Of a DNA stretch of 64,000 nt, positions 2,720 through 62,639 are shown piece by piece. How positions within the stretch are numbered: position 1 is the first letter of the stretch; the number at the start of each line of letters is the position of its first letter. Both the position numbers and the translations under genes were made by a program. Under the pieces are notes generated by a model that ran no database searches, was not told where the DNA came from, and saw only the letters and a program-made list of their open reading frames with translations. Origin of the DNA: Agrococcus jejuensis (GTDB taxonomy: Bacteria > Actinomycetota > Actinomycetes > Actinomycetales > Microbacteriaceae); NCBI RefSeq assembly GCF_007679035.1, contig NZ_VEFR01000001.1:434001-498000 (forward strand), given 5' to 3'.

Positions 2720-4840
2720 TCATGCCTCCTTCGTCGCGGCGATCGACTCGCGCGCAGCGGCCACGACGGCCTCGTGCGTGAGTCCGAACTCGCGGAACAG
2801 GGTCTGGTAGTCGGCGCTCGCGCCGAAGTGGTCGATGCCCACCGAGCGACCGGCGTCGCCGACGATGCCCGCCCAGGTGAGCACGGAGCCGGCCTCGACC
2901 GACACGCGCGCCTTGACGGCCTTCGGCAGCACCGACTCGCGGTACTCGGCCGACTGCTCGGCGAACCACTCGAGGCTCGGTGCGGCGACGACGCGCACGC
3001 CGATGCCCTCGGCCTCGAGCACCTCGCGGGCTGCGACCGCGATCTGCACCTCGGAGCCCGTGCCGATGAGGATGAGCTCGGGCGTCTCGGTCGACGCGTC
3101 GACGAGCGTGTACGCGCCCTTCGCCACGTTCGACGCCGCCGCGAACGTGTCGGCGGTCGCCGCACCCTCGCCGCGCTCGAACGTGGGGATCGGCTGGCGC
3201 GTGAGCGCGATGCCGACGGGCTTGTGCTTGCGCTCGAGGATCGTCTTCCACGCCCACGCCGTCTCGTTGGCGTCCGAGGGACGCACGACGTCGAAGCCGG
3301 GGATCGCGCGCAGCGTCGCGAGCTGCTCGATCGGCTGGTGCGTGGGGCCGTCCTCGCCGAGGGCGACGGAGTCGTGCGTCCACACGTGGATGGGGTGCAC
3401 GCCCATGAGGGCCGCGAGGCGCAGCGCGGGACGCTGGTAGTCGCTGAAGATCAGGAAGGTGCCGCCGAACGGACGCGTCGGGCCGTGCAGCACGATGCCG
3501 TTGAGGATCGCGGCCATCGCGTGCTCGCGGATGCCGAAGTGCAGCGTGCGACCGGCGAACGACGCCGTCGGGAACTCCTTGGTGCCGGAGCCCGCGGGCA
3601 GGAACGAGCCGCCGCCCTCGATGGTCGTGTTGTTCGACTCGGCGAGGTCTGCGGAGCCGCCCCACAGCTCGGGGATCACGCCGGCGAGGGCGTTGATGAC
3701 CTTGCCGCTCGCCGCGCGCGTCGCGAGGTCCTTGCCGGCCTCGAACACGGGCAGCGCCTCCTCGATGCCGTCGGGCAGCGCGCCGGACTCGAGGCGCTCG
3801 AGCAGCGCCTTGCCCTCCGGGTTCGCAGCGGCCCACGCGTCGAAGCGCGGCTGCCATGCGGCGCGTGCCGTCGTCGCGCGCTCGGCGGCGTTCGTGCGGG
3901 TGTGGTCGAGCACGCCCTCGGGCAGCGCGAAGTGCTCCTCGGGGTCGAAGCCCACGAGCTCCTTCGTCGCCGCGAGCTCCTCGGCGCCGAGCTTCGATCC
4001 GTGGATCTTGCCCGTGTTGCGCTTCGTGGGGGCCGGCCAGCCGATGATCGTGCGCAGCACGATGAGCGTCGGCTTCGTCGTCTCGGCCTTGCCGGCCTCG
4101 ATGGCGGCGTGGAGGGCCGGGAGGTCCTCGTGGTAGTCGGCGTCGTCGGCCGGGTCGCCAGAGCGCCAGTCGACCTCGAGCACCTGCCAGCCGTAGGCCT
4201 CGTAGCGGGCCTTGACGTCCTCGGTGAACGCGACGTCGGTGTCGTCCTCGATCGAGATCTGGTTGGAGTCGTAGATCGCGATGAGGCGACCGAGCTCCTG
4301 ACGGCCCGCGAGCGAGCCGGCCTCGCTCGTGACGCCCTCCTGCAGGTCGCCGTCGCCGGCGATCACGTAGGTGTAGTGATCGAAGGGGCTCTCGCCGTCG
4401 GCCGTGTCGGGGTCGAGCAGCGCGCGCTCGAAGCGCTGCGCGTACGCGAAGCCGACCGCGGACGCGAGGCCCTGGCCCAGCGGTCCGGTCGTGATCTCGA
4501 CGCCGTCGGTGTGGCCGAACTCGGGGTGGCCGGGGGTCTTCGAGCCCCACGTGCGCAGCGCCTGCAGGTCGGTCAGCTCGAGGCCGTCGCCTGCGAGGAA
4601 CAGCTGCACGTACTGCGTGATCGACGAGTGGCCGGCCGAGAGGACGAAGCGATCGCGACCGAGCCAGGCGTGGTCGGCGGGATCGCGCTCCATGACCTTC
4701 TGGAACAGCAGGTACGCAGCCGGTGCGAGGCTCATCGCCGTGCCGGGGTGGCCGTGACCGGCCTTCTCCACGGCGTCCGCGGCGAGGATGCGGGCCGTGT
4801 CCACGGCCTTCGCGTCGGTCTCAGTCCATTCGAGCGTCAA
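2720..4840 (-). CDS. tkt: Transketolase
   Basis: This thiamine-diphosphate enzyme transfers two-carbon units between sugar phosphates in the pentose phosphate pathway. Visible motifs are [14 protein letters not shown] near the N-terminus, GDGDLQEGV for diphosphate and metal binding, and FGIREHAM in the pyrimidine domain. About 706 residues is normal. Family members in this group start close to a short LxW element before DxxAVDTAR. A TTG at 4840 gives [11 protein letters not shown] and has GGAAGG seven bases upstream. The ATG at 4855 adds five residues and has a poorer ribosome site. I chose TTG, with some doubt. It is the first gene of the tkt-tal-pgi operon, divergent from ctaB. Confidence 0.93.
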
Positions 4841-4975
4841 TGCGGGCCCTTCCATGCGGGAGCGGCCCCACTCACGTGGCAGGGCCGATGCTTCTGGTGG
4901 TGCGACGTGTTCGAGCATAGTGACCGCGGCATGCTCACGAGCGGGCCTTGCGGCCCGGTAGACTCGGACCGTCAC

Positions 4976-5914
<939 letters not shown>

Positions 5915-41327: not shown

Positions 41328-41510
41328 TCAGGCCGTGTCGACGAGCACCCGGCCCTCCGGCACGGGCTCGGGCGCAGCGAGTGCGCCCGCATGCCAGTCC
41401 CAGTGCTGGAAGGTGGATGCGCGCTGCTCGCGGAACGGCACGAGCACCTCGTGCACGAGGCGCTCGCAGTCGACGAGCCCGTCGAGGTCGAGCAGCCGCG
41501 GGTCGGTCAC
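41328..41510 (-). CDS. Small protein coupled to the exonuclease gene (60 aa)
   Basis: This 60-residue frame starts at GTG overlapping the exonuclease stop as GTGA and ends 27 bases before the rpmE2 hairpin. The sequence (VTDPRLLDLDGLVDCERL, then STFQHWDWHAGALAAPEP) is not low complexity and has a Trp/His cluster. I know no family. The overlap pattern, common for real genes here, supports translation. Confidence 0.55.
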   Translation of the reverse strand: MTDPRLLDLDGLVDCERLVHEVLVPFREQRASTFQHWDWHAGALAAPEPVPEGRVLVDTA

Positions 41511-42451
41511 GCCGTGCGCGACTGACGGATGGGCCAGCCGCGATCGGCCGTGAACGACGGGTCGCGCTGCTGCATGTAGCGGGCGAACGACTCCGCCTGC
41601 TGCGTCGCCCAGTCGACGGTCGACGCATGCAGCTCGTCGGCCGGCACCCGCAGCTGGGGGAACAGCTCGTGCATCGCCTGCGCGAGGCGGCCGGCTGCGA
41701 TGGCGTCGGCGGACGCCTCGTGCCAGCCCTCGAGCTCCACGCCGTAGTGGGCGCACGTGACGCCGAGCGTGCGCTTGCCCTTGCGGTAGCGATCCACGTG
41801 CTTGTCGAGCACGAGCGGGTCGATGACGGGCGAGGGCGCCTCGACGGGTGCGATGCCGTGGCGCAGCGCCTCGTGGTGCAGCACCGTGAAGTCGTAGGCG
41901 GCGTTGAACGCGACGACGGGCGTGCCCGCACGCAGCAGGTTCGCGACCTCGGCGACGATCGCCGCGACGACCTGCTGCGCGGCCGCGCCCTCGGCGCGAG
42001 CCCGCTCGGTCGTGATGCCGTGGATGGCGGCGGCGCCCTCGGGGATCTCGACGCCGGGGTCGGCGAGCCATGCATGCTGCTCGAGCAGCTCCCCGCGCTC
42101 GTCGAGCACGCCGAGGAACGCCGTGACGATGCGCGCCGTCGACGTGTCGACGCCCGTGGTCTCGAGGTCGAACACGGCCAGGCGCGATGCCCAGCCCTGC
42201 TGCTGCACCTCGTGCGCGACGGCGACGGCGGCGTCGACGGTGCGCATGGGGAGCGCCTCGAGGGGCTCCGCGGGCGTGGAGGTCGGGCGCTCGGCGCTGC
42301 CGGTGCGGGCATCGCTGGACTCGGCGACGATGGGCTCGGCGATGGTGGGCGCGACGACCTCCGGCCCGCCGGCATCCATCGCCAGCGCCTGGGTCACGAG
42401 GTCGTCGATCGCTCCCGAGTCGCCCGGCCGCGGGCTCTGGATCTCGATCAT
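41507..42451 (-). CDS. DEDDh-type 3'-5' exonuclease (DnaQ/PolC epsilon-like)
   Basis: This exonuclease-fold protein has motif I AVFDLETTGVDT, motif II VAFNAAYDFTVLHHEAL and motif III HEASADAIAAGRL, fitting a proofreading-type or repair nuclease. The start at 42451 gives 314 residues with an N-terminal Glu/Ala/Pro-rich 68-residue extension. A second ATG at 42247 (GAGG eight bases upstream) would give the usual 246-residue core. TAGCGT six bases before 42451 supports the long form as a leaderless transcript. Confidence 0.88.
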   Translation of the reverse strand: MIEIQSPRPGDSGAIDDLVTQALAMDAGGPEVVAPTIAEPIVAESSDARTGSAERPTSTPAEPLEALPMRTVDAAVAVAHEVQQQGWASRLAVFDLETTGVDTSTARIVTAFLGVLDERGELLEQHAWLADPGVEIPEGAAAIHGITTERARAEGAAAQQVVAAIVAEVANLLRAGTPVVAFNAAYDFTVLHHEALRHGIAPVEAPSPVIDPLVLDKHVDRYRKGKRTLGVTCAHYGVELEGWHEASADAIAAGRLAQAMHELFPQLRVPADELHASTVDWATQQAESFARYMQQRDPSFTADRGWPIRQSRTA

Positions 42452-42457
42452 GGCGCC

Positions 42458-42463
42458 ACGCTA
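42458..42463 (-). promoter_or_regulatory. -10 box of a leaderless promoter (TAGCGT)
   Basis: TAGCGT lies six bases before the longer exonuclease start at 42451 and argues for that start. Confidence 0.5.
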
Positions 42464-42500
42464 GCCGTGGCCCCCGACACGCGCAGGCAGGCGCGCCCCG

Positions 42501-55925: not shown

Positions 55926-56864
55926 TCAGACGGGCGGCGGGGGAGCGGGGTGGTCGTCGCCCTCGGCGTCCGCGTCGGGCTCGTCGTCGGGATGCTGGGT
56001 CTCGAGGAAGCGCTGGAACTCCTTCGCGAGCGCCTCGCCCGAGGCCTCCGGGCTCTCGACCGTGTCCCGCTGCTGCTCGAGGTGGCCGATGTACGCGCGC
56101 ATGTCGTCGTCGCGCTCCGCGAGCTCGTCGACGCCCGACTCCCACTCGCCAGCCAGACGCGGCAGCTCGCCGAGCGGCACCGTGACGTCGAGCAGCTCCG
56201 TGAGCCGGTCGAGCAGCGCGATCGTCGCCTTGGGCACGTGCGTCGCGTGCACGTAGTGCGGCACCGACGCCCACACGCTCGCGGTCTGGATGCCCACCTG
56301 CTCTGCCGCCATCGCGATGACCGACATGATGCCGGTCGGGCCCTCGTACTCGCTCTGCTGCACGCCGAGGCGGTGCCGCAGCGACGCCGACTCGCTCGTG
56401 ACGCTCGTCGGCGTGGGTCGCGTGTGCGGCACGTCGGCGAGCATCGCGCCGACGAAGACCATCGCATCGACCTCGCACTGCCGAGCGATCTCGACCGCCT
56501 GGTCGGCGAAGTCCAGCCAGTTGCGGCTCGGCTCGGCGCCCAGCAGCGCGAAGAGCTCGCCGTCGGCACCGGTCGACACCGACAGTCCCGCATCCTCGAC
56601 GATCGCCTCGCGCTCGCTCGACCGCGTCGGCGCGTACGCGATGGTCGCGGGCCATGACAGCGCACGCGACCCGTCCTCGAGCCTGCGCAGCATCGGTCGC
56701 GCGAACGTGAAGTCGAGGAAGTCGTCGGGCTCGATCTCGTCGAACGGCTCGAGCTCGCACGCGTCGATGACGCGTCGCACGGCCGTCGAGGCCGCCTCGC
56801 CCGCGTCGTTCCAGCCCTCGAACGCGACGAGCATGATGCGTCCGATGATCGGTCCCGTGCTCAC
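55926..56864 (-). CDS. PAC2-family protein (proteasome assembly chaperone-like)
   Basis: This 312-residue protein matches the PAC2 (DUF75) family with VAFEGWNDAGEAAS near the N-terminus and a mid-protein GIMSVIAMAAEQVGI region. In actinobacteria PAC2 genes usually lie near mshC and the proteasome locus; their function is unclear. GAGGAG lies nine bases before the chosen GTG (56864). The C-terminus is an acidic and proline-rich tail (QHPDDEPDADAEGDD, then APPPPV). The proteasome genes themselves are not in this window. Confidence 0.9.
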   Translation of the reverse strand: MSTGPIIGRIMLVAFEGWNDAGEAASTAVRRVIDACELEPFDEIEPDDFLDFTFARPMLRRLEDGSRALSWPATIAYAPTRSSEREAIVEDAGLSVSTGADGELFALLGAEPSRNWLDFADQAVEIARQCEVDAMVFVGAMLADVPHTRPTPTSVTSESASLRHRLGVQQSEYEGPTGIMSVIAMAAEQVGIQTASVWASVPHYVHATHVPKATIALLDRLTELLDVTVPLGELPRLAGEWESGVDELAERDDDMRAYIGHLEQQRDTVESPEASGEALAKEFQRFLETQHPDDEPDADAEGDDHPAPPPPV

Positions 56865-56943
56865 CTGCGTCGTCTCCTCATCAGGCGTCCACCCTACGCC
56901 CGCGTGCCTGGGCCGACGGGCGATCGCACCCTGCCACGGAACG

Positions 56944-56949
56944 TAGGAT
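56944..56949 (+). promoter_or_regulatory. -10 box of a leaderless promoter (TAGGAT)
   Basis: TAGGAT lies six bases before the GTG of the HAD gene, which leads the HAD-trmI-FKBP-pafBC run. Confidence 0.55.
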
Positions 56950-56955
56950 GGTGCG

Positions 56956-57624
56956 GTGAGCGATCTGGATGCCGTGCTGTGGGATCTCGACGGCACCCTC
57001 ATCGACAGCGAGTCCTACTGGCGCGTCGCGGAGCGGCGCCTCGTGGCCGAGTTCGACGTGGCGTGGACCCTCGACGACGAAGCCGCCCTCGTGGGCGTCG
57101 ACCTATGGGACGGCGCTCGCTACATGGTGGGGCGCGGCGTCGCGATGGAGCCCGACGACATCGTCGCGCGCCTCGACCGCGAGGTGATGGCGCAGCTGCG
57201 CGAGCACGTGCCGTTCCGGCCGGGGGCCGCCGAGCTGCTGACGTCGCTCAGGGCGGCCGAGGTGCCCCTCGCGCTCGTGACGATGTCGACGCGTGCGCTC
57301 GTCGAGCTCGTGCTCGCGTCGAGCGAGGCGCAGCTGGGCGTGCAGCCGTTCACGGTGTCCGTGACGGGCGACGAGGTGCCGCGCGGCAAGCCGTTCCCCG
57401 ACCCGTACCTGCAGGCGCTCGAGGCGCTCGGCGCCCGTGCCGCGTCGTCGGTGGCGTTCGAGGACTCGATCCCCGGATCGACGTCGGCGCGCGACGCGGG
57501 GCTCGTGACCGTCGGCGTCCCGCACGAGGCCGACCTCGGCGACGTCGCCGGCATCACGCTGTGGCCGACGCTCGTCGATCGCACCGTCGACGACGTGCGC
57601 GACCTCGTGGGGGTGCGCGCATGA
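56956..57624 (+). CDS. HAD-superfamily hydrolase
   Basis: This 222-residue phosphatase-like protein has motif I LWDLDGTLIDSE (nucleophile Asp), a helical cap, motif II VTMSTRA, and motif III/IV with GKPFPDPY and FEDSIPG. It resembles beta-phosphoglucomutase/phosphatase-like HAD IA enzymes; the substrate is unknown. It overlaps trmI as ATGA. HAD-trmI pairs at this position are common next to the actinobacterial proteasome locus. Confidence 0.91.
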   Translation: MSDLDAVLWDLDGTLIDSESYWRVAERRLVAEFDVAWTLDDEAALVGVDLWDGARYMVGRGVAMEPDDIVARLDREVMAQLREHVPFRPGAAELLTSLRAAEVPLALVTMSTRALVELVLASSEAQLGVQPFTVSVTGDEVPRGKPFPDPYLQALEALGARAASSVAFEDSIPGSTSARDAGLVTVGVPHEADLGDVAGITLWPTLVDRTVDDVRDLVGVRA

Positions 57625-58625
57625 CGCCGCGCACCGGCCCGCTCCGCCTCGGCGACCCCGTGCAGCTCACGGGTCCCAAGCAGCGCCTCCACACCATCGT
57701 GCTCACCGAGGGCTCGACGTTCCACACGCAGCACGGCGCCCTGCCGCACGAGGAGATCGTCGGCCATCCCGACGGCTCGATCGTGCACGTCGGCGAGCAC
57801 GCGTACCTCGCGGTGCGCCCGCTGCTGCACGACTACGTCATGTCGATGCCGCGCGGCGCCGCGATCGTCTACCCCAAGGACGCCGGCCACATCCTCACGT
57901 ACGCCGACATCCAGCCCGGCCTCACGGTCGTCGAGGCGGGCGTCGGCTCGGGCGCGCTGTCGCTGTGGCTGCTGCGCGCCCTCGCCGGCCAGGGCGAGCT
58001 CGTCTCGTTCGAGCGTCGCCAGGAGTTCCTCGACATCGCCGAGGCGAACGTGGCCGGATGGTTCGGCGAGCGGCCCGCCAACTGGCGCACCGCCGTCGGC
58101 GACCTCGCCGAGACCCTCGGCGACCACGTGCCCGACCAGACGGCCGACCGCGTCGTGCTCGACATGCTCGCACCGTGGGAGTGCGTGGATGCGGCCGCGA
58201 CGGCGCTGCAGCCCGGCGGCATCCTGCTCGCCTACGTCGCGACCGTGACGCAGCTCTCGCGCACCGTCGAGGCCGTGCGCGACGACGGCCGCTTCGCCGA
58301 GCCGCAGTCGCAGGAGACGCTCATCCGCTCATGGCACGTCGACGGCCTCGCCGTGCGCCCCGACCACCGCATGGTCGCCCATACCGGCTTCCTCATGACG
58401 GCCCGTCGCGTCGCCGACGACCTCGAGATCCCGTCGTTCAAGCGCCGCTCGAACAAGGCCTCGTACACCGACGCCGACGTCGAGGCGTGGACGCCCGGCG
58501 CCGTGGGCGATCGCGAGAAGAGCGACAAGCGCCTGCGGCGTGCCGTGCGCGACGCGCAGCGGCAGGCCGACCGCCTCGCCGCCGGTACGATCGACTCCGA
58601 CTCCCGACCTGAGGATGACGCGTGA
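57621..58625 (+). CDS. trmI: tRNA (adenine-58-N1)-methyltransferase TrmI
   Basis: TrmI methylates adenine 58 in the T-loop of tRNAs. The 334-residue protein has an N-terminal beta domain, the SAM-binding motif VEAGVGSGALSLWLLRAL, and VVLDMLAPWE. A Lys/Arg-rich C-terminal tail carries an extra 60 residues. It overlaps HAD (ATGA) and the FKBP lipoprotein gene (GTGA). In relatives the next genes are mpa, dop, pup and prcBA. Confidence 0.94.
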   Translation: MTPRTGPLRLGDPVQLTGPKQRLHTIVLTEGSTFHTQHGALPHEEIVGHPDGSIVHVGEHAYLAVRPLLHDYVMSMPRGAAIVYPKDAGHILTYADIQPGLTVVEAGVGSGALSLWLLRALAGQGELVSFERRQEFLDIAEANVAGWFGERPANWRTAVGDLAETLGDHVPDQTADRVVLDMLAPWECVDAAATALQPGGILLAYVATVTQLSRTVEAVRDDGRFAEPQSQETLIRSWHVDGLAVRPDHRMVAHTGFLMTARRVADDLEIPSFKRRSNKASYTDADVEAWTPGAVGDREKSDKRLRRAVRDAQRQADRLAAGTIDSDSRPEDDA

Positions 58626-59599
58626 CCAAGCACCTCCGCCGCCCCATCACGGCGGCTGCAGCACTCCTGATCGTCGGCACCGCGCTCACGGCGTGCCACG
58701 TCGTGCCGGCGGAGCAGTCCGTCGCAGGCTGCACCCCGTCGATCCAGCCCGGCGGCGCCTCGAACGCCGTGCACGCCACGACGGGCATCGACGCGCTGCC
58801 GACCGACGTGCCGTTCCAGACGCCGCTGGCGATCGACGGCCCTGAGGCGAGCATCCGCGGCGCGGGGGAGGACCCCGCCGAGCCCGGCGACGTCGTGATC
58901 GCCGACTACACGCTGTACGACGGCACCACGGGCGAGGTGCTCGAGTCGACCGACTCGACGCTGCTGCGCGCGCTCGCCGCGGACTCGGGCGAGGAGATCC
59001 AGCCCGCCTCGCAGCAGCTCACGCTGCGCACGGGCGGCGAGACCGTGCTCTCGCAGGGTCTCGAGTGCGCCACGGCCGGCTCGACCGTCGCGCTCGTCGC
59101 GCCCTACCTCGACCTCTTCGGCGACTCCGTCGCGCAGGCGGGCGTCGACCCCGAGTCGACGGCCGTGCTGCTGCTCGAGGTGCAGGACGCGTTCCCCGGC
59201 CGCGCCGAGGGCTTCCCGCAGCCTGCCGTCGGTGGCATCCCCGCGATCGCGCTCGCGACCGACGGCACGCCCGGCGTGACCTTCTCGGGTGCCGACGCGC
59301 CGACCGAGCTCACGGTCGGCACCACCATCGGTGGCGACGGAGCCGTCGTCGGCGAGACCGACACCATCGTCGTGCAGTACACGCTCCTCGAGTGGGATGC
59401 GACGACCGTGACCGAGACGACGTGGGGCTCTGCGCCCGCGACCTTCGAGCTCTCCGGGCTCATCCCCGGCTTCCAGCAGGCCGTCATCGGCCAGCGGGTC
59501 GGCAGCCAGGTCGTCGCGGTCGTGCCGCCGGAGCTCGGCTACGACGACGGTCGCACGCTCGTCTTCGTCATCGACATCCTGGACGCCGAGGCGCCGTGA
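58622..59599 (+). CDS. FKBP-type peptidyl-prolyl isomerase lipoprotein
   Basis: This 325-residue protein is exported as a lipoprotein (signal peptide with lipobox LTAC, Cys about residue 25). Its C-terminal FKBP domain contains IVVQYTLLEWD, GLIPGFQQAVIGQRVGS and PPELGYDD. A weaker related domain is in the N-terminal half (PGDVVIADYTLYDGTTGEVL). FKBPs speed proline isomerisation during folding outside the membrane. The GTG start overlaps the trmI stop, and the stop overlaps pafB as GTGA, so it is in one translation-coupled run. Confidence 0.91.
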   Translation: MTKHLRRPITAAAALLIVGTALTACHVVPAEQSVAGCTPSIQPGGASNAVHATTGIDALPTDVPFQTPLAIDGPEASIRGAGEDPAEPGDVVIADYTLYDGTTGEVLESTDSTLLRALAADSGEEIQPASQQLTLRTGGETVLSQGLECATAGSTVALVAPYLDLFGDSVAQAGVDPESTAVLLLEVQDAFPGRAEGFPQPAVGGIPAIALATDGTPGVTFSGADAPTELTVGTTIGGDGAVVGETDTIVVQYTLLEWDATTVTETTWGSAPATFELSGLIPGFQQAVIGQRVGSQVVAVVPPELGYDDGRTLVFVIDILDAEAP

Positions 59600-60579
59600 G
59601 CGACGTCAGCGTGTCGGAGCGCCAGTTCTCGCTGACGCTCGCGCTCCTGCACGCTGCGCACGGAGCCACGAAGCGCGAGCTCTTCGAGCGCGTCGCCGGC
59701 TACCAGGGGCGCCCGATCGACGCCGCCCTCGAGCGGCAGTTCGAGCGCGACAAGGACGACCTGCGCGAGCAGGGCTTCGTCATCGACGTCTTCACGCCGC
59801 CCGCCGAGCACGACAACAACCAGGAGTCGCGCTACCGACTGCTCGACGCCGTCGTGGGCACGCCCGAGGACCTCGCGTTCTCGGAGTCCGAGCGCACGCT
59901 CATCGACCTCGCGCTGCGCGTGTGGCGCGACGGCGGGCTCACGGAGGAGTCGCAGCTCGCGACGACGAAGCTGCGCGCGCATCCGCAGTACCGGGCCGGT
60001 CTCGCGCATGCGGTGTCGCCGACGCAGTCGGCCGTGGATCGCGCCTTCCAGTCGCTCAAGCGCGCGACCGAGCGCGGCGCCGTCGTGCAGTTCGCGTACC
60101 TGAAGCCGGGCGAGCGTGAGGCGACGAGGCGCACGGTGCAGCCGTGGTGCGTGCTGCTGTTCCGCAGCCGCTGGATGCTGCACGGCTTCGACGTCGACCG
60201 CGGCGAGACGCGCACGTTCCTCATGCGTCGCATCGTGAGCGACGTGCAGGCGACGAAGCCGCGCGAGCCGTTCACGGTGCCCGAGGGCGCCGCCGACGCC
60301 GCGCTCGAGGATCTCGAGCGCATCTGGGCATCGGCGACGGCGCGCGTGCGCGTGCTGCCGGGCTCCGACGCCGAGGTGCGTCTCGCCCGCCGCCGCGACA
60401 CGACGGTCGAGGGCGACGAGCTCACGCTGCACCACGCGGACACGAACCTGCTCGCCGACGAGCTCGCCGGCTACGGCGCCGAGGTCGTCGTGCTGCACCC
60501 GCCGCTGCTCGCGGCGCTCGTGCGCGAGCGGCTCGAGCGCATCCGCGACGCGCATGCGGACGACCAGGGAGCGGTCTGA
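59596..60579 (+). CDS. pafB: WYL-domain transcriptional regulator PafB
   Basis: PafB pairs with PafC as the PafBC regulator, which in mycobacteria activates DNA-damage genes independently of Pup. The 327-residue protein has an N-terminal helix-turn-helix (TKRELFERVAGYQG) and a WYL domain (VVQFAYLKPGEREATRRTVQPW, RWMLHGFDV, RTFLMRRI). GTG overlaps the FKBP stop. It overlaps pafC as TGATG, fitting a heterodimer. The pafA ligase gene that names the operon is not upstream. Confidence 0.93.
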   Translation: MSDVSVSERQFSLTLALLHAAHGATKRELFERVAGYQGRPIDAALERQFERDKDDLREQGFVIDVFTPPAEHDNNQESRYRLLDAVVGTPEDLAFSESERTLIDLALRVWRDGGLTEESQLATTKLRAHPQYRAGLAHAVSPTQSAVDRAFQSLKRATERGAVVQFAYLKPGEREATRRTVQPWCVLLFRSRWMLHGFDVDRGETRTFLMRRIVSDVQATKPREPFTVPEGAADAALEDLERIWASATARVRVLPGSDAEVRLARRRDTTVEGDELTLHHADTNLLADELAGYGAEVVVLHPPLLAALVRERLERIRDAHADDQGAV

Positions 60580-61526
60580 TGGCGGGCAAGGGTCAGCGGC
60601 AGTCGATCGCGCTGCTCGTCGCGCTCATCCCGTACCTCTCGGCTGAGGGCAGCGTCACGGTCGCGCAGGCCGCAGCGCACTTCGACGTGACGGAGGCGCG
60701 CATCCGCGACGCGGTGCGCCTCATCTTCATGTCGGGCGTGCCCGACGGGTTCGGCGACTTCGACCGCTTCGACCTCAACGTCGACGCCTTCGAGGACCAC
60801 GACGTCATCGAGCTCGGCTACCGGCCGACGCTCGACGGCGACGCCATCCGCCTCGCACCGCGCGAGATGGGCGCGATCCTCGCGGGCCTCCGGCTCATCG
60901 CGGGCGTGCAGGGCGTCGACGACGACGCCGTCGCAGCGCTCGCCGCGCGACTGCGCCGTGCCGCGGTGCCCGCCGCCGCGACGCTCGGCGTCGACGCCCC
61001 CGTGGCCGACTCGTCGGCGCGCGCCGTGCGCGACGCCATCGAGCACCGCGTCGTCGTGCACCTCGACTACCGCAAGCCGGGCGCCGCCACCGAGCGGCGG
61101 ACGATCGCGCCGACGGCCCTCGAGCTGCGCGACGGGCAGGCGTACGTCGTCGGCTACGACCTCGACCGCGCCGCAGAGCGCCGCTTCCGTCTCGACCGCA
61201 CCGAGTCGGTCGCGCACGCCGACGTCGCCTATCCCGATGCCGCGCTCGCCGCGACGCGGGAGCGCATCGACGCCGACGAGACGATCGTCGTGCGGGCGAC
61301 GCCCGCGGCGGCGGCGCTGCTCGCCGACTACGCAGACGGACCCTCGCGCGTCGACGGCGAGCACGAGATCGTCGACATCCGGGTGTGGAACGCGGACGCC
61401 GTGCTGCGGCAGGTCGCGTCGCTCGGCGGCGACGCCGTCGTGCTGCGTCCGGCGTCGGCACGGGCGGCACTGCGCCGATTCGCGGAGGCCGCCCTCCTGG
61501 CCGGAGATCGCCCGAGCGCGCCGTGA
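60579..61526 (+). CDS. pafC: WYL-domain transcriptional regulator PafC
   Basis: The partner of PafB, 315 residues. An N-terminal winged helix (VTVAQAAAHFDVTEARIRDAV) precedes a central connector and a WYL domain (VVHLDYRKPGAATERRTIAP, QAYVVGYDLDRAAERRFRLDRTE). It starts one base into the pafB stop. A 10-base direct repeat (GTGACGTCGC twice) sits at its stop codon, 61523-61542. It is followed by 96 bases before tatA. Confidence 0.93.
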   Translation: MAGKGQRQSIALLVALIPYLSAEGSVTVAQAAAHFDVTEARIRDAVRLIFMSGVPDGFGDFDRFDLNVDAFEDHDVIELGYRPTLDGDAIRLAPREMGAILAGLRLIAGVQGVDDDAVAALAARLRRAAVPAAATLGVDAPVADSSARAVRDAIEHRVVVHLDYRKPGAATERRTIAPTALELRDGQAYVVGYDLDRAAERRFRLDRTESVAHADVAYPDAALAATRERIDADETIVVRATPAAAALLADYADGPSRVDGEHEIVDIRVWNADAVLRQVASLGGDAVVLRPASARAALRRFAEAALLAGDRPSAP

Positions 61527-61622
61527 CGTCGCGTGACGTCGCACATCCGCTCGGCGCGCCGTAGCGAACCCCATGGAGGCGTACGCGCGGTACCCTGGAC
61601 ACGACATCGAGAGGAATCGATC

Positions 61623-61829
61623 ATGGGCGGATTCGCCGGGAACCTGGCCTCCCACTGGTGGGTCATCCTCATCATCGTGCTGCTGATCTTCGGCGCCACG
61701 CGACTGCCGCAGCTCGCGAAGGGCATCGGCGAGTCGATCAACGTCTTCAAGCGCGAGGTGAAGAAGGACGCACCCGCCGACGAGGCGGACACGACGACGC
61801 CGTCGAACGACGCACGCGACTCCAAGTAG
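61623..61829 (+). CDS. tatA: Sec-independent protein translocase TatA
   Basis: TatA forms the pore part of the twin-arginine translocase that exports folded proteins. The 68-residue protein has a short N-terminus, one membrane helix (WWVILIIVLLIFGATRLPQLA) with the conserved FG hinge, an amphipathic helix (AKGIGESINVFKREVKK) and an acidic Thr/Asp tail. GAGAGGA lies about seven bases before the ATG. It is followed three bases later by tatC. Confidence 0.96.
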   Translation: MGGFAGNLASHWWVILIIVLLIFGATRLPQLAKGIGESINVFKREVKKDAPADEADTTTPSNDARDSK

Positions 61830-61832
61830 CGC

Positions 61833-62639
61833 ATGGCCGTCACGGCCGGAGCCTCGAAGCGCACCCGACGTCCCCGCGACGCCGAGGGCCGCATGCGGCT
61901 CATCGAGCATCTGCGCGAGCTGCGGCGGCGCTTCGTCATCTCGTTCGCCGCGATCGCGGTGCTCGGCATCGGCGGCTTCTTCCTGTCGGACTTCGTGCTC
62001 ATGCTCCTCGCGGCGCCGCTCGTGCCGCTGCAGGAGGAGCGCATCGTCGAGCTGAACTTCACGTTCATCACGCAGTCGTTCGACATCAAGATGCGCATCG
62101 GCCTGCTCGTGGGCGTCATCGCCTCGAGCCCCGTCTGGCTCTACAACATCCTCGCGTTCCTGCTGCCCGGCCTGCACAAGGGCGAGCGCCGCTACGTCTG
62201 GGGCTTCCTCGCCTCGGCGGTGCCGCTGTTCCTCGGCGGCTGCACCATGGGCTGGCTGCTGCTGCCGCGCATCGTGCAGCTCTTCGTGGGCTTCGCACCG
62301 GCCGGCACGACGTCGGTGCTGTCCGCGCAGGAGTACTTCGACTTCTCCTTCAAGCTCGTCGTGGCGATCGGCCTCGGCTTCGTCGTGCCCGTCGTGATCG
62401 TCTTCCTCAACCTCGCCGGCGCCATCACGGGAGCCGCGATCCTCAAGGGATGGCGATGGTCGGTGCTCGGCATCGCGCTGTTCGCGGCGTGCGTCACGCC
62501 GGCCGGTGAGCTGCTGTCGATGTTCCTCATCGCCGGGCCGATCATCGTGCTCTACTTCGCCGCCGGCGGCTTCGCCGTGCTCAACGACCGCCGCCGCGCC
62601 AAGCGGCTCGCCGCCGACTCCTCGGTCGGGACCGCGTGA
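61833..62639 (+). CDS. tatC: Sec-independent protein translocase TatC
   Basis: TatC recognises twin-arginine signal peptides and is the core of the Tat complex. The 268-residue protein has six helices with conserved EGRMRLIEHLRELRRRF and IASSPVWLYNILAFLLPGL, and ends in a short basic tail. No tatB gene lies between tatA and tatC. It overlaps the helicase gene as GTGA. Confidence 0.96.
   Translation: MAVTAGASKRTRRPRDAEGRMRLIEHLRELRRRFVISFAAIAVLGIGGFFLSDFVLMLLAAPLVPLQEERIVELNFTFITQSFDIKMRIGLLVGVIASSPVWLYNILAFLLPGLHKGERRYVWGFLASAVPLFLGGCTMGWLLLPRIVQLFVGFAPAGTTSVLSAQEYFDFSFKLVVAIGLGFVVPVVIVFLNLAGAITGAAILKGWRWSVLGIALFAACVTPAGELLSMFLIAGPIIVLYFAAGGFAVLNDRRRAKRLAADSSVGTA

Follow-up and report, generated by a model that had tools for sequence, protein, structure and literature searches.

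Probable loss of the Pup-proteasome block beside a retained PafBC with altered ssDNA-binding positions in the Microbacteriaceae

In Mycobacterium smegmatis, PafB grips single-stranded DNA (ssDNA) by six residues of its WYL domain—R181, Y196, R204, R208, R211, and R214, five basic residues and one aromatic—and the WYL arginines of PafC are dispensable for ssDNA binding. The M. smegmatis PafBC (PDB 7p5x and 9fnd) and the fused PafBC of Arthrobacter aurescens (6sj9) are built from two HTH-WYL-WCX paralogues, as is the PafBC described here, which is encoded by two adjacent genes. The actinobacterial Pup-proteasome locus (mpa, dop, pup, prcBA, and pafA) shares its flanking genes—trmI, FKBP, pafBC, PAC2, and HAD—with the present locus, in which the whole degradation block is missing. 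According to passages of a review (PMC8223512), RecA in mycobacteria returns to its pre-stress level after damage only when the Pup-proteasome system (PPS) is intact.

We analyzed a stretch of 64,000 nucleotides from Agrococcus jejuensis (the window), together with its source genome and related genomes. Very probably, the PPS block was lost on the stem of the Microbacteriaceae, the adjoining PafBC survived as a functional DNA-damage activator at its ancestral promoters, and the ssDNA pocket was rewritten in both subunits. A single segment some 5 to 13 kb long, mpa-dop-pup-(prcBA)-pafA, would have disappeared from the trmI-FKBP interval; the retained PafBC would still drive recA, uvrA, and other genes from their ancestral promoter, with no Pup-proteasome branch left to remove its products; and the rewriting of the pocket would have taken place in the same lineage.

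Gene order and the missing degradation block

The HAD-family hydrolase gene (56956-57624), the first of a collinear run on the plus strand, overlaps trmI by four bases (ATGA). The trmI gene (57621-58625, plus strand; tRNA methyltransferase-like, PF14801 TrmI-like_N and PF08704 GCD14) forms the left flank of the missing block, and an FKBP-type gene (58622-59599, plus strand; PF00254 FKBP_C, 40.5 bits), the product of which reads as a lipoprotein from its N-terminus, forms the right flank. Their GTGA overlap (58622-58625, plus strand) marks the point where the block stands in the other families of the order, and a second GTGA overlap (59596-59599, plus strand), established by the reading frames, joins FKBP to pafB. 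The gene for the DNA-damage activator subunit, pafB (59596-60579, plus strand; WYL and WCX), in turn overlaps that for its partner, pafC (60579-61526, plus strand; HTH_PafC, 80.6 bits, with WYL and WCX), by one base. To the right lie tatA (61623-61829, plus strand; TIGR01411, 53.0 bits, slightly below the cut-off of 53.9) and tatC (61833-62639, plus strand; TIGR00945, 155 bits, above cut-off). The head-to-tail trmI-FKBP-pafB-pafC run holds no PPS genes. The original prediction, which had pointed to the two GTGA overlaps, to the absence of the block between trmI and pafB, and to the retention of PafBC and a nearby PAC2 gene, is borne out on these points by the reading frames, the gene order, and the domain matches; the PAC2-family gene (55926-56861, minus strand; PF09754, 161 bits) is kept despite the absence of a proteasome.

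The locus is the same among the relatives, as a comparison proposed with the original prediction revealed. In 20/20 Microbacteriaceae loci, trmI and FKBP are adjacent and are followed by pafB-pafC, the HAD gene holds the same position, and a PAC2 match adjoins the HAD gene or lies near it. Among 80 named loci of the family with 6-kb flanks, 78 contain trmI, FKBP, and pafB together, and none has a pafA or dop match. In the other families of the order, the arrangement is trmI-[PafA/Dop genes]-FKBP, with an FKBP match 3′ of pafA in 15 of 20 PafA/Dop-bearing stretches; the block of locus L100 comprises mpa, dop, pup, prcB, prcA, and pafA, all above their cut-offs. The GTGA overlaps had been taken as the sign of a settled arrangement, a claim that does not hold. 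They are a local feature, and since the trmI-FKBP spacing ranges between a slight overlap and some 130 bases in the 18 of 20 relatives with listable start codons, overlaps alone do not mark such an arrangement; it is the constant gene order that does.

The source genome, a draft in 64 contigs that is 99.8% complete, contains no profile match to PafA/Dop and no 20S proteasome subunit (PrcA/PrcB). Searches confined to this genome found no Pup and nothing above cut-off for Mpa/ARC, for which the best match reached 153 bits against 504.75 and came from an ORF that reads as FtsH-like. The genome-wide check that the original prediction had called for therefore came back empty. Moreover, across 249 Microbacteriaceae genomes from 85 genera, single-contig genomes included, neither PafA/Dop (PF03136; 0/249, and 0/225 of high quality) nor the proteasome (PF00227; 0/249) was found, and of 396 genomes from the order, 353 gave a PF03136 match above cut-off. 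A PF03136 match below cut-off in one family member (G615, E 7e-4) was taken for noise. The control genome, Corynebacterium glutamicum, was positive for Pup and PafA/Dop and not for the proteasome. The idea that pupylation was lost while PafBC was kept is thus supported, not as the peculiarity of a single lineage but as a trait of the whole sampled family. Among the papers listed by literature searches, the titles and abstract openings contain no statement of a family-wide loss. The family member Leifsonia xyli is not known to have the system, so that absence in single members is probably already known.

Because the absence is common to the whole sampled family, we infer that the block was lost on the family stem. 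The alternative that the Microbacteriaceae never had the system and that other families gained it late is highly improbable: we found no support for it, and the other families have the same gene order and carry the block at an identical position, where many independent gains are unlikely. As for relocation, or concealment in an assembly gap, the 64 contigs of the draft would leave room for either, but the family-wide absence, in single-contig genomes as well, makes their probability negligible; at the family level relocation is excluded for PafA/Dop and the 20S subunits, and Pup and Mpa were not found in the source genome.

Retention of PafBC and of its promoter motif

The closest solved protein to the PafB of the window is M. 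smegmatis PafB (9fnd_X, E 2.7e-28), and the closest to its PafC are the PafC half of 6sj9 and the PafC 7p5x_AX. Both proteins carry WYL and WCX and PafC carries HTH_PafC, while the N-terminal part of PafB, although unmatched in Pfam, aligns with the corresponding region of the M. smegmatis protein. A WYL-domain tree, built by a quick method from few columns, parts PafB-type from PafC-type sequences with one change. The best PDB matches and this tree establish the orthology of the subunits, and exclude swapped pafB/pafC labels or exchanged WYL domains. PafB was matched in 245 of the 249 family genomes and unmatched in four (G015, G081, G088, and G144); six of the matches are weak (E 1e-4 to 2.5e-17; G005, G038, G133, G151, G202, and G247) and may represent other WYL proteins.

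The promoter motif is retained as well. Among 30 Microbacteriaceae genomes, it precedes recA in 21 by a strict pattern and in 27 by a relaxed one, always with a spacer of 8, and it precedes uvrA strictly in 13 (N8) plus 7 (N7) and relaxedly in 15 plus 8 (23/30). Dinucleotide shuffles gave means of 0.00-0.02. The motif is missing from 3/30 recA and 7/30 uvrA upstreams; seven of these ten upstreams belong to genomes of 2.0 Mb or less, and three do not. The source genome has 10 matches, recA and uvrA among them, versus 0 for the reversed pattern, although the pattern was shaped on the family's own recA and uvrA sites after they had been seen; the mycobacterial consensus, when one mismatch was allowed, yielded 10 matches versus 4 for the control, a weak excess, too small to use alone.

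The motif also follows the presence of PafB. In other families, it precedes recA in 22 of 25 genomes with PafB versus 0 of 5 without it (Fisher P 4e-4); PafB without a recA motif occurs in G306 (f10) and in G307 and G259 (f12). Within the window, a PafBC-type (RecA-NDp-like) motif, GTGTCGGGGGCCACGGCTAGCGT (42458-42480, minus strand), lies upstream of an RNase_T-type exonuclease gene (41507-42451, minus strand; PF00929, 50 bits), the ATG of which begins 29 nt past the first base of the motif, and we predict this gene to be a PafBC target. At the motif level, then, RecA-NDp-type sites stand at repair genes as expected of PafBC. These observations suggest that PafBC probably still works in the Microbacteriaceae and would activate the motif-bearing promoters after DNA damage.

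The ssDNA-binding positions of PafB and PafC

The six-residue set of M. smegmatis PafB is present in full in the PafB of 57 of 62 PafA/Dop-bearing genomes and 0 of 38 Microbacteriaceae, and in the PafC of 0 of 31 PafA/Dop-bearing comparators and 36 of 36 Microbacteriaceae. The PafB of the window keeps four of the six, with Met194 (60175-60177, plus strand; column 191 of the trimmed alignment, the numbering of which is three lower) at the Tyr196 place and Leu209 (60220-60222, plus strand; column 206) at the Arg211 place. The R204 place is altered in 36 of the 38 family sequences. Conversely, PafC Arg197 (61167-61169, plus strand), the homologue of PafB Arg204 by alignment, occupies a place that is basic in 36/36 and 80/80 Microbacteriaceae versus 0/31 comparators. 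The set is regarded here as characteristic of the mycobacterial protein rather than as a defining feature of PafBC, membership being decided by descent and architecture.

This reciprocal change between PafB and PafC is new here, as far as it can be read from the sequences. The basic residue gained in PafC sits at precisely the position homologous to one that PafB has lost, so that the full set appears in one subunit where it is missing from the other. We tentatively propose, at a little below an even chance, that damage sensing moved from PafB to PafC with the loss of the PPS while the promoter stayed unchanged. If so, PafC would be the sensing subunit in the Microbacteriaceae, and an altered threshold or off-rate of PafC would perhaps compensate for a response that proteolysis no longer shuts off.

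A possibility that likewise falls short of even, and ranks just after, is that the pocket changed through ordinary divergence of the lineage and nothing passed between the subunits, PafB remaining the main ssDNA sensor through the R181, R208, and R214 places and other basic residues. All Microbacteriaceae sequences compared (38/38 and 80/80) keep the R181 and R214 places unchanged, PafB is altered at many positions with basic residues gained elsewhere, its summed WYL charge is only about one unit lower in the family, and that of PafC is slightly lower rather than higher (0.86 versus 1.52). Moreover, the pocket positions are enriched among the switched PafB columns only at P 0.056. The stem/crown ratio of PafB is long (1.37), similar to that of TatC (1.26); those of trmI (0.66), FKBP (0.63), PafC (0.31, support 57), and HAD (0.21) are shorter. 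These ratios rest on 5 to 17 comparator rows, with pafC rows L089 and L103 and pafB row L089 excluded as mis-hits, and gave no value for PAC2 (the family is not one clade) or helY (too few rows); an acceleration special to PafB is unsupported. Against mere divergence stand the R211 place, which shows the second-largest group difference among 302 columns, the position of the PafC gain, and the finding, given in excerpts of the M. smegmatis study PMC11804915, that Y196A alone abolished ssDNA binding.

It is unlikely that PafBC answers here to another ligand, such as another nucleic acid or a nucleotide: the Tyr196, Arg204, and Arg211 places of PafB are lost in most members, and so is Trp250 of PafC (W in 29/31 others, 0/36 Microbacteriaceae), but PafC holds the full basic and aromatic set and the motif still precedes DNA repair genes. 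A relic drifting after the loss, as the long PafB stem and its many changed columns might suggest, is very improbable in view of the near-universal PafB with its invariant residues and the fixed spacing of the motif in most sampled genomes.

The proposal that this lineage offers a natural test of PafBC alone is weakened, since a difference from mycobacteria could stem from the changed PafB and PafC or from the missing PPS.

Comparison with described systems

Passages of the review PMC8223512 describe actinobacteria that lost prcBA only and kept pupylation, and the search results for the C. glutamicum control fit this description. These represent a secondary reduction of the same locus, in which pupylation stays, whereas it is gone in the Microbacteriaceae, a large family whose sampled genomes all lack both PafA/Dop and a proteasome. 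In the opposite direction, four genomes of the order have PafA/Dop and lack both PafB (at E 1e-15) and the recA motif. Judged from gene content, regulator and degradation machinery therefore appear separable in both directions, in contrast to the mycobacterial work that ties them together. A family of soil and plant bacteria would thus have dropped a degradation machine and kept the DNA-damage switch beside it, and the reciprocal residue change provides a sharp and cheap test of ssDNA recognition by WYL regulators and of the identity of the sensing half of PafBC.

The mycobacterial PafBC shares with that of the Microbacteriaceae the same promoter motif before recA and uvrA. Unlike the M. smegmatis and A. 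aurescens systems, however, the source genome has no PPS; PafB of the family lacks Y196 and R211 and, in nearly all sequences, R204; and its PafC, without W250, is basic at the position homologous to R204.

The trmI–pafB locus and the missing Pup-proteasome block

In the window, the region 55926-62639 is tightly packed: the PAC2 gene (55926-56861, reverse strand) is outermost, followed up to 62639 on the forward strand by HAD, trmI, an FKBP gene, pafB, pafC, tatA and tatC, in that order. Our reading of the FKBP gene after trmI is that it encodes a lipoprotein. The reading frames and domain matches bear out the original prediction that trmI, FKBP and pafB are consecutive, with no Pup-proteasome block (mpa, dop, pup, prcBA, pafA) between them. 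The two GTGA overlaps that it described (58622-58625 and 59596-59599, forward strand) are also present in the reading frames, but they are not general, since the trmI–FKBP spacing varies among relatives from a slight overlap to about 130 bases (18 of 20 relative loci, those with listable starts). The gene order PAC2, HAD, trmI, FKBP, pafB, pafC, tatC, helY is found in all 20 Microbacteriaceae loci, two of which gave no tatA match.

Has the block been lost, or merely relocated? A genome-wide search of the source genome (draft, 3.35 Mb, 99.8% complete) for PafA, Pup, Dop, Mpa and PrcA/B revealed no Pup, no PafA/Dop, no proteasome subunit and, for Mpa, nothing above the model cut-off. This rules out relocation and upholds the predicted loss. 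Neither PF03136 (PafA/Dop; 85 genera) nor PF00227 (proteasome) was found in any of the 249 Microbacteriaceae genomes. Across the order, PF03136 has a match in 354 of 396 genomes, 353 of them above the cut-off; the sole match below it, in G615 (E 7e-4), is itself in a Microbacteriaceae genome. All 20 of the listed genomes without a match are Microbacteriaceae; two genomes of another family (f4), G251 and G299, must be among the 22 others, because neither appears in the listed matches. The PAC2 gene is retained in 20/20 Microbacteriaceae loci, and its role there cannot be proteasome assembly, as the family has no proteasome.

Next, we compared 20 stretches around PafA/Dop matches in other families. 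PafA/Dop genes come after trmI in all 17 stretches in which trmI was matched, an FKBP match follows pafA in 15 of the 20 (the remainder end early or gave none), and pafB was matched in seven. In these stretches, 5 to 13 kb separate the stop codon of trmI from the start of FKBP. In L100, the one stretch whose proteasome genes were examined, the block consists of mpa, dop, pup, prcB, prcA and pafA, each above the NCBIfam cut-off. Since this block lies between trmI and FKBP, it is what the Microbacteriaceae locus is missing. In L100, HAD and trmI are also separated by a gene for an M50 peptidase (4518-5831), with a CBS match just below the cut-off; there is no such gene at that place in the window, where HAD (57624) and trmI (57621) overlap.

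Retention of PafBC and its promoter motif

PafB has a match in 245 of the 249 Microbacteriaceae genomes; six of these are low-scoring and possibly represent other WYL proteins, and the others have E values of 1e-26 or better. Three of the four genomes without a match are 0.9-1.1 Mb and the fourth is 1.5 Mb.

The mycobacterial PafBC promoter motif is given as tTGTCRgtg-8-TannnT in the available part of PMC5656591. For recA (matched in 59 Microbacteriaceae genomes) and uvrA (matched in 60), we took the 30 best-scoring loci each and searched the 350 bases preceding the gene for this motif. The strict form (TGTCRGWG-N8-TANNNT) precedes recA in 21/30 and uvrA in 13/30, plus seven with N7, and the relaxed form (TGTCRG-N10-TANNNT) precedes recA in 27/30 and uvrA in 15 plus eight; with other spacers from 0 to 20, recA gave none and uvrA one. 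Dinucleotide shuffles averaged 0.00 to 0.02, and the antisense strand gave 0. The eight motifs with a 7-base rather than an 8-base spacer before uvrA (L137, L138, L143, L144, L147, L151, L159 and L161, all Microbacteriaceae) lie at -59 to -62 relative to the start of the UvrA model match.

In other families of the order, 22 of 25 PafB-bearing genomes (all except G306, G307 and G259) have the relaxed motif before recA, versus none of five without PafB (Fisher P 4e-4). PafA/Dop is present in four of these five—G268, G313 and G393 (f4) and G443 (f3)—which lack PafB at E 1e-15 and have no RecA-NDp motif before recA. PafBC and its promoter therefore appear separable from the Pup-proteasome system in both directions: Microbacteriaceae have PafBC only, and these four genomes are the opposite. 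On the sequence evidence, the simplest account is that the system was lost on the Microbacteriaceae stem, while PafBC was kept working.

In the window's own genome, the mycobacterial consensus with one mismatch has 10 matches versus four in the control, and RTGTCRGNG-N8-TANNNT, a pattern modelled on the family's own sites, has 10 versus 0 for the reversed control. Gene position identifies recA and uvrA as predicted targets, and domain matches add a UvrD-family helicase, PhoH-PIN, an RNase_T-type exonuclease (41507-42451, reverse strand; motif 42458-42480, ATG 29 nt after the motif start) and an M4 (thermolysin-family) metallopeptidase (L335, the locus at C11:544054; motif 29 nt before the start). 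For a regulator that responds to DNA damage, the metallopeptidase would be a surprising target. An alpha/beta hydrolase and nrdH were assigned by reading alone, as was a LexA-like box that also lies upstream of recA, and two of the ten sites have no identified target gene. At five of the ten sites, 29-30 bases separate the motif's first base from the start codon, a spacing suggestive of leaderless transcripts.

Reciprocal changes in the ssDNA pocket

According to the available part of PMC11804915, ssDNA binding by M. smegmatis PafB is abolished by R181A, Y196A, R181A/R204A/R208A and R211A/R214A, R211 being assayed there only jointly with R214. R181, Y196, R204, R208, R211 and R214 correspond to R179, M194, R202, R206, L209 and R212 of the window PafB, and the homologous places in the window PafC are R174, Y189, R197, R201, R204 and R207. 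The PafB and PafC samples compared below are mostly best-scoring sequences, and reduced genomes with divergent PafB lie outside them. In the PafB of PafA/Dop-bearing genomes (n=62), the R211 place is R57 K4 N1, the Y196 place Y61 V1 and the R204 place R58. In that of Microbacteriaceae (n=38), the R211 place is L38 and the Y196 place H21 M9 L6 Y2, and arginine occupies the R204 place in only two, the window among them. Neither group varies at the R181 and R214 places, and the R208 place is R or K. The 80 named loci, which share 18 of the 38 family sequences and include Clavibacter, Cryobacterium, Frigoribacterium, Leifsonia, Herbiconiux, Salinibacterium and Microbacterium, have L80 at the R211 place, no tyrosine at the Y196 place and R80 at the R181 and R214 places.

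In PafC, the six homologous positions are in gapless register and complete in Microbacteriaceae. The R204 homologue is basic in 36/36 and 80/80 Microbacteriaceae and A, S or V in 31/31 comparators; the other five places are conserved in both groups, apart from one exception at each of two places among the comparators and three Microbacteriaceae sequences with Phe instead of Tyr. Thus, all six are basic or aromatic in PafB of 57/62 comparators and 0/38 Microbacteriaceae, and in PafC of 0/31 comparators, 36/36 Microbacteriaceae and 80/80 named loci. A single change suffices to separate the WYL domains into a PafB type and a PafC type, so no domain was exchanged between the two subunits. In a quickly built tree, some of whose branches are long, the Microbacteriaceae PafB form one clade (support 100), and the R211 change is one step.

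This reciprocal pocket change hints at a transfer of ssDNA sensing from PafB to PafC without proving it. Several observations speak against such a transfer: PafB is altered at many columns, pocket positions are only weakly enriched among the switched ones (P 0.056), the PafC WYL domain has gained no net charge, PafB is not alone in having a long stem, and the binding assay that covers R211 combined it with R214. The pocket change and the loss of the Pup-proteasome system fall on the same stem, which would fit either order and does not imply a causal tie.

The closest solved structures are those of M. smegmatis PafB and PafC and the fused PafBC of A. aurescens. In the available part of PMC11804915, M. 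smegmatis PafC R201A/R204A binds as the wild type does, and a triple mutant including W250 binds more weakly; the W250 place is tryptophan in 29/31 comparators and 0/36 Microbacteriaceae.
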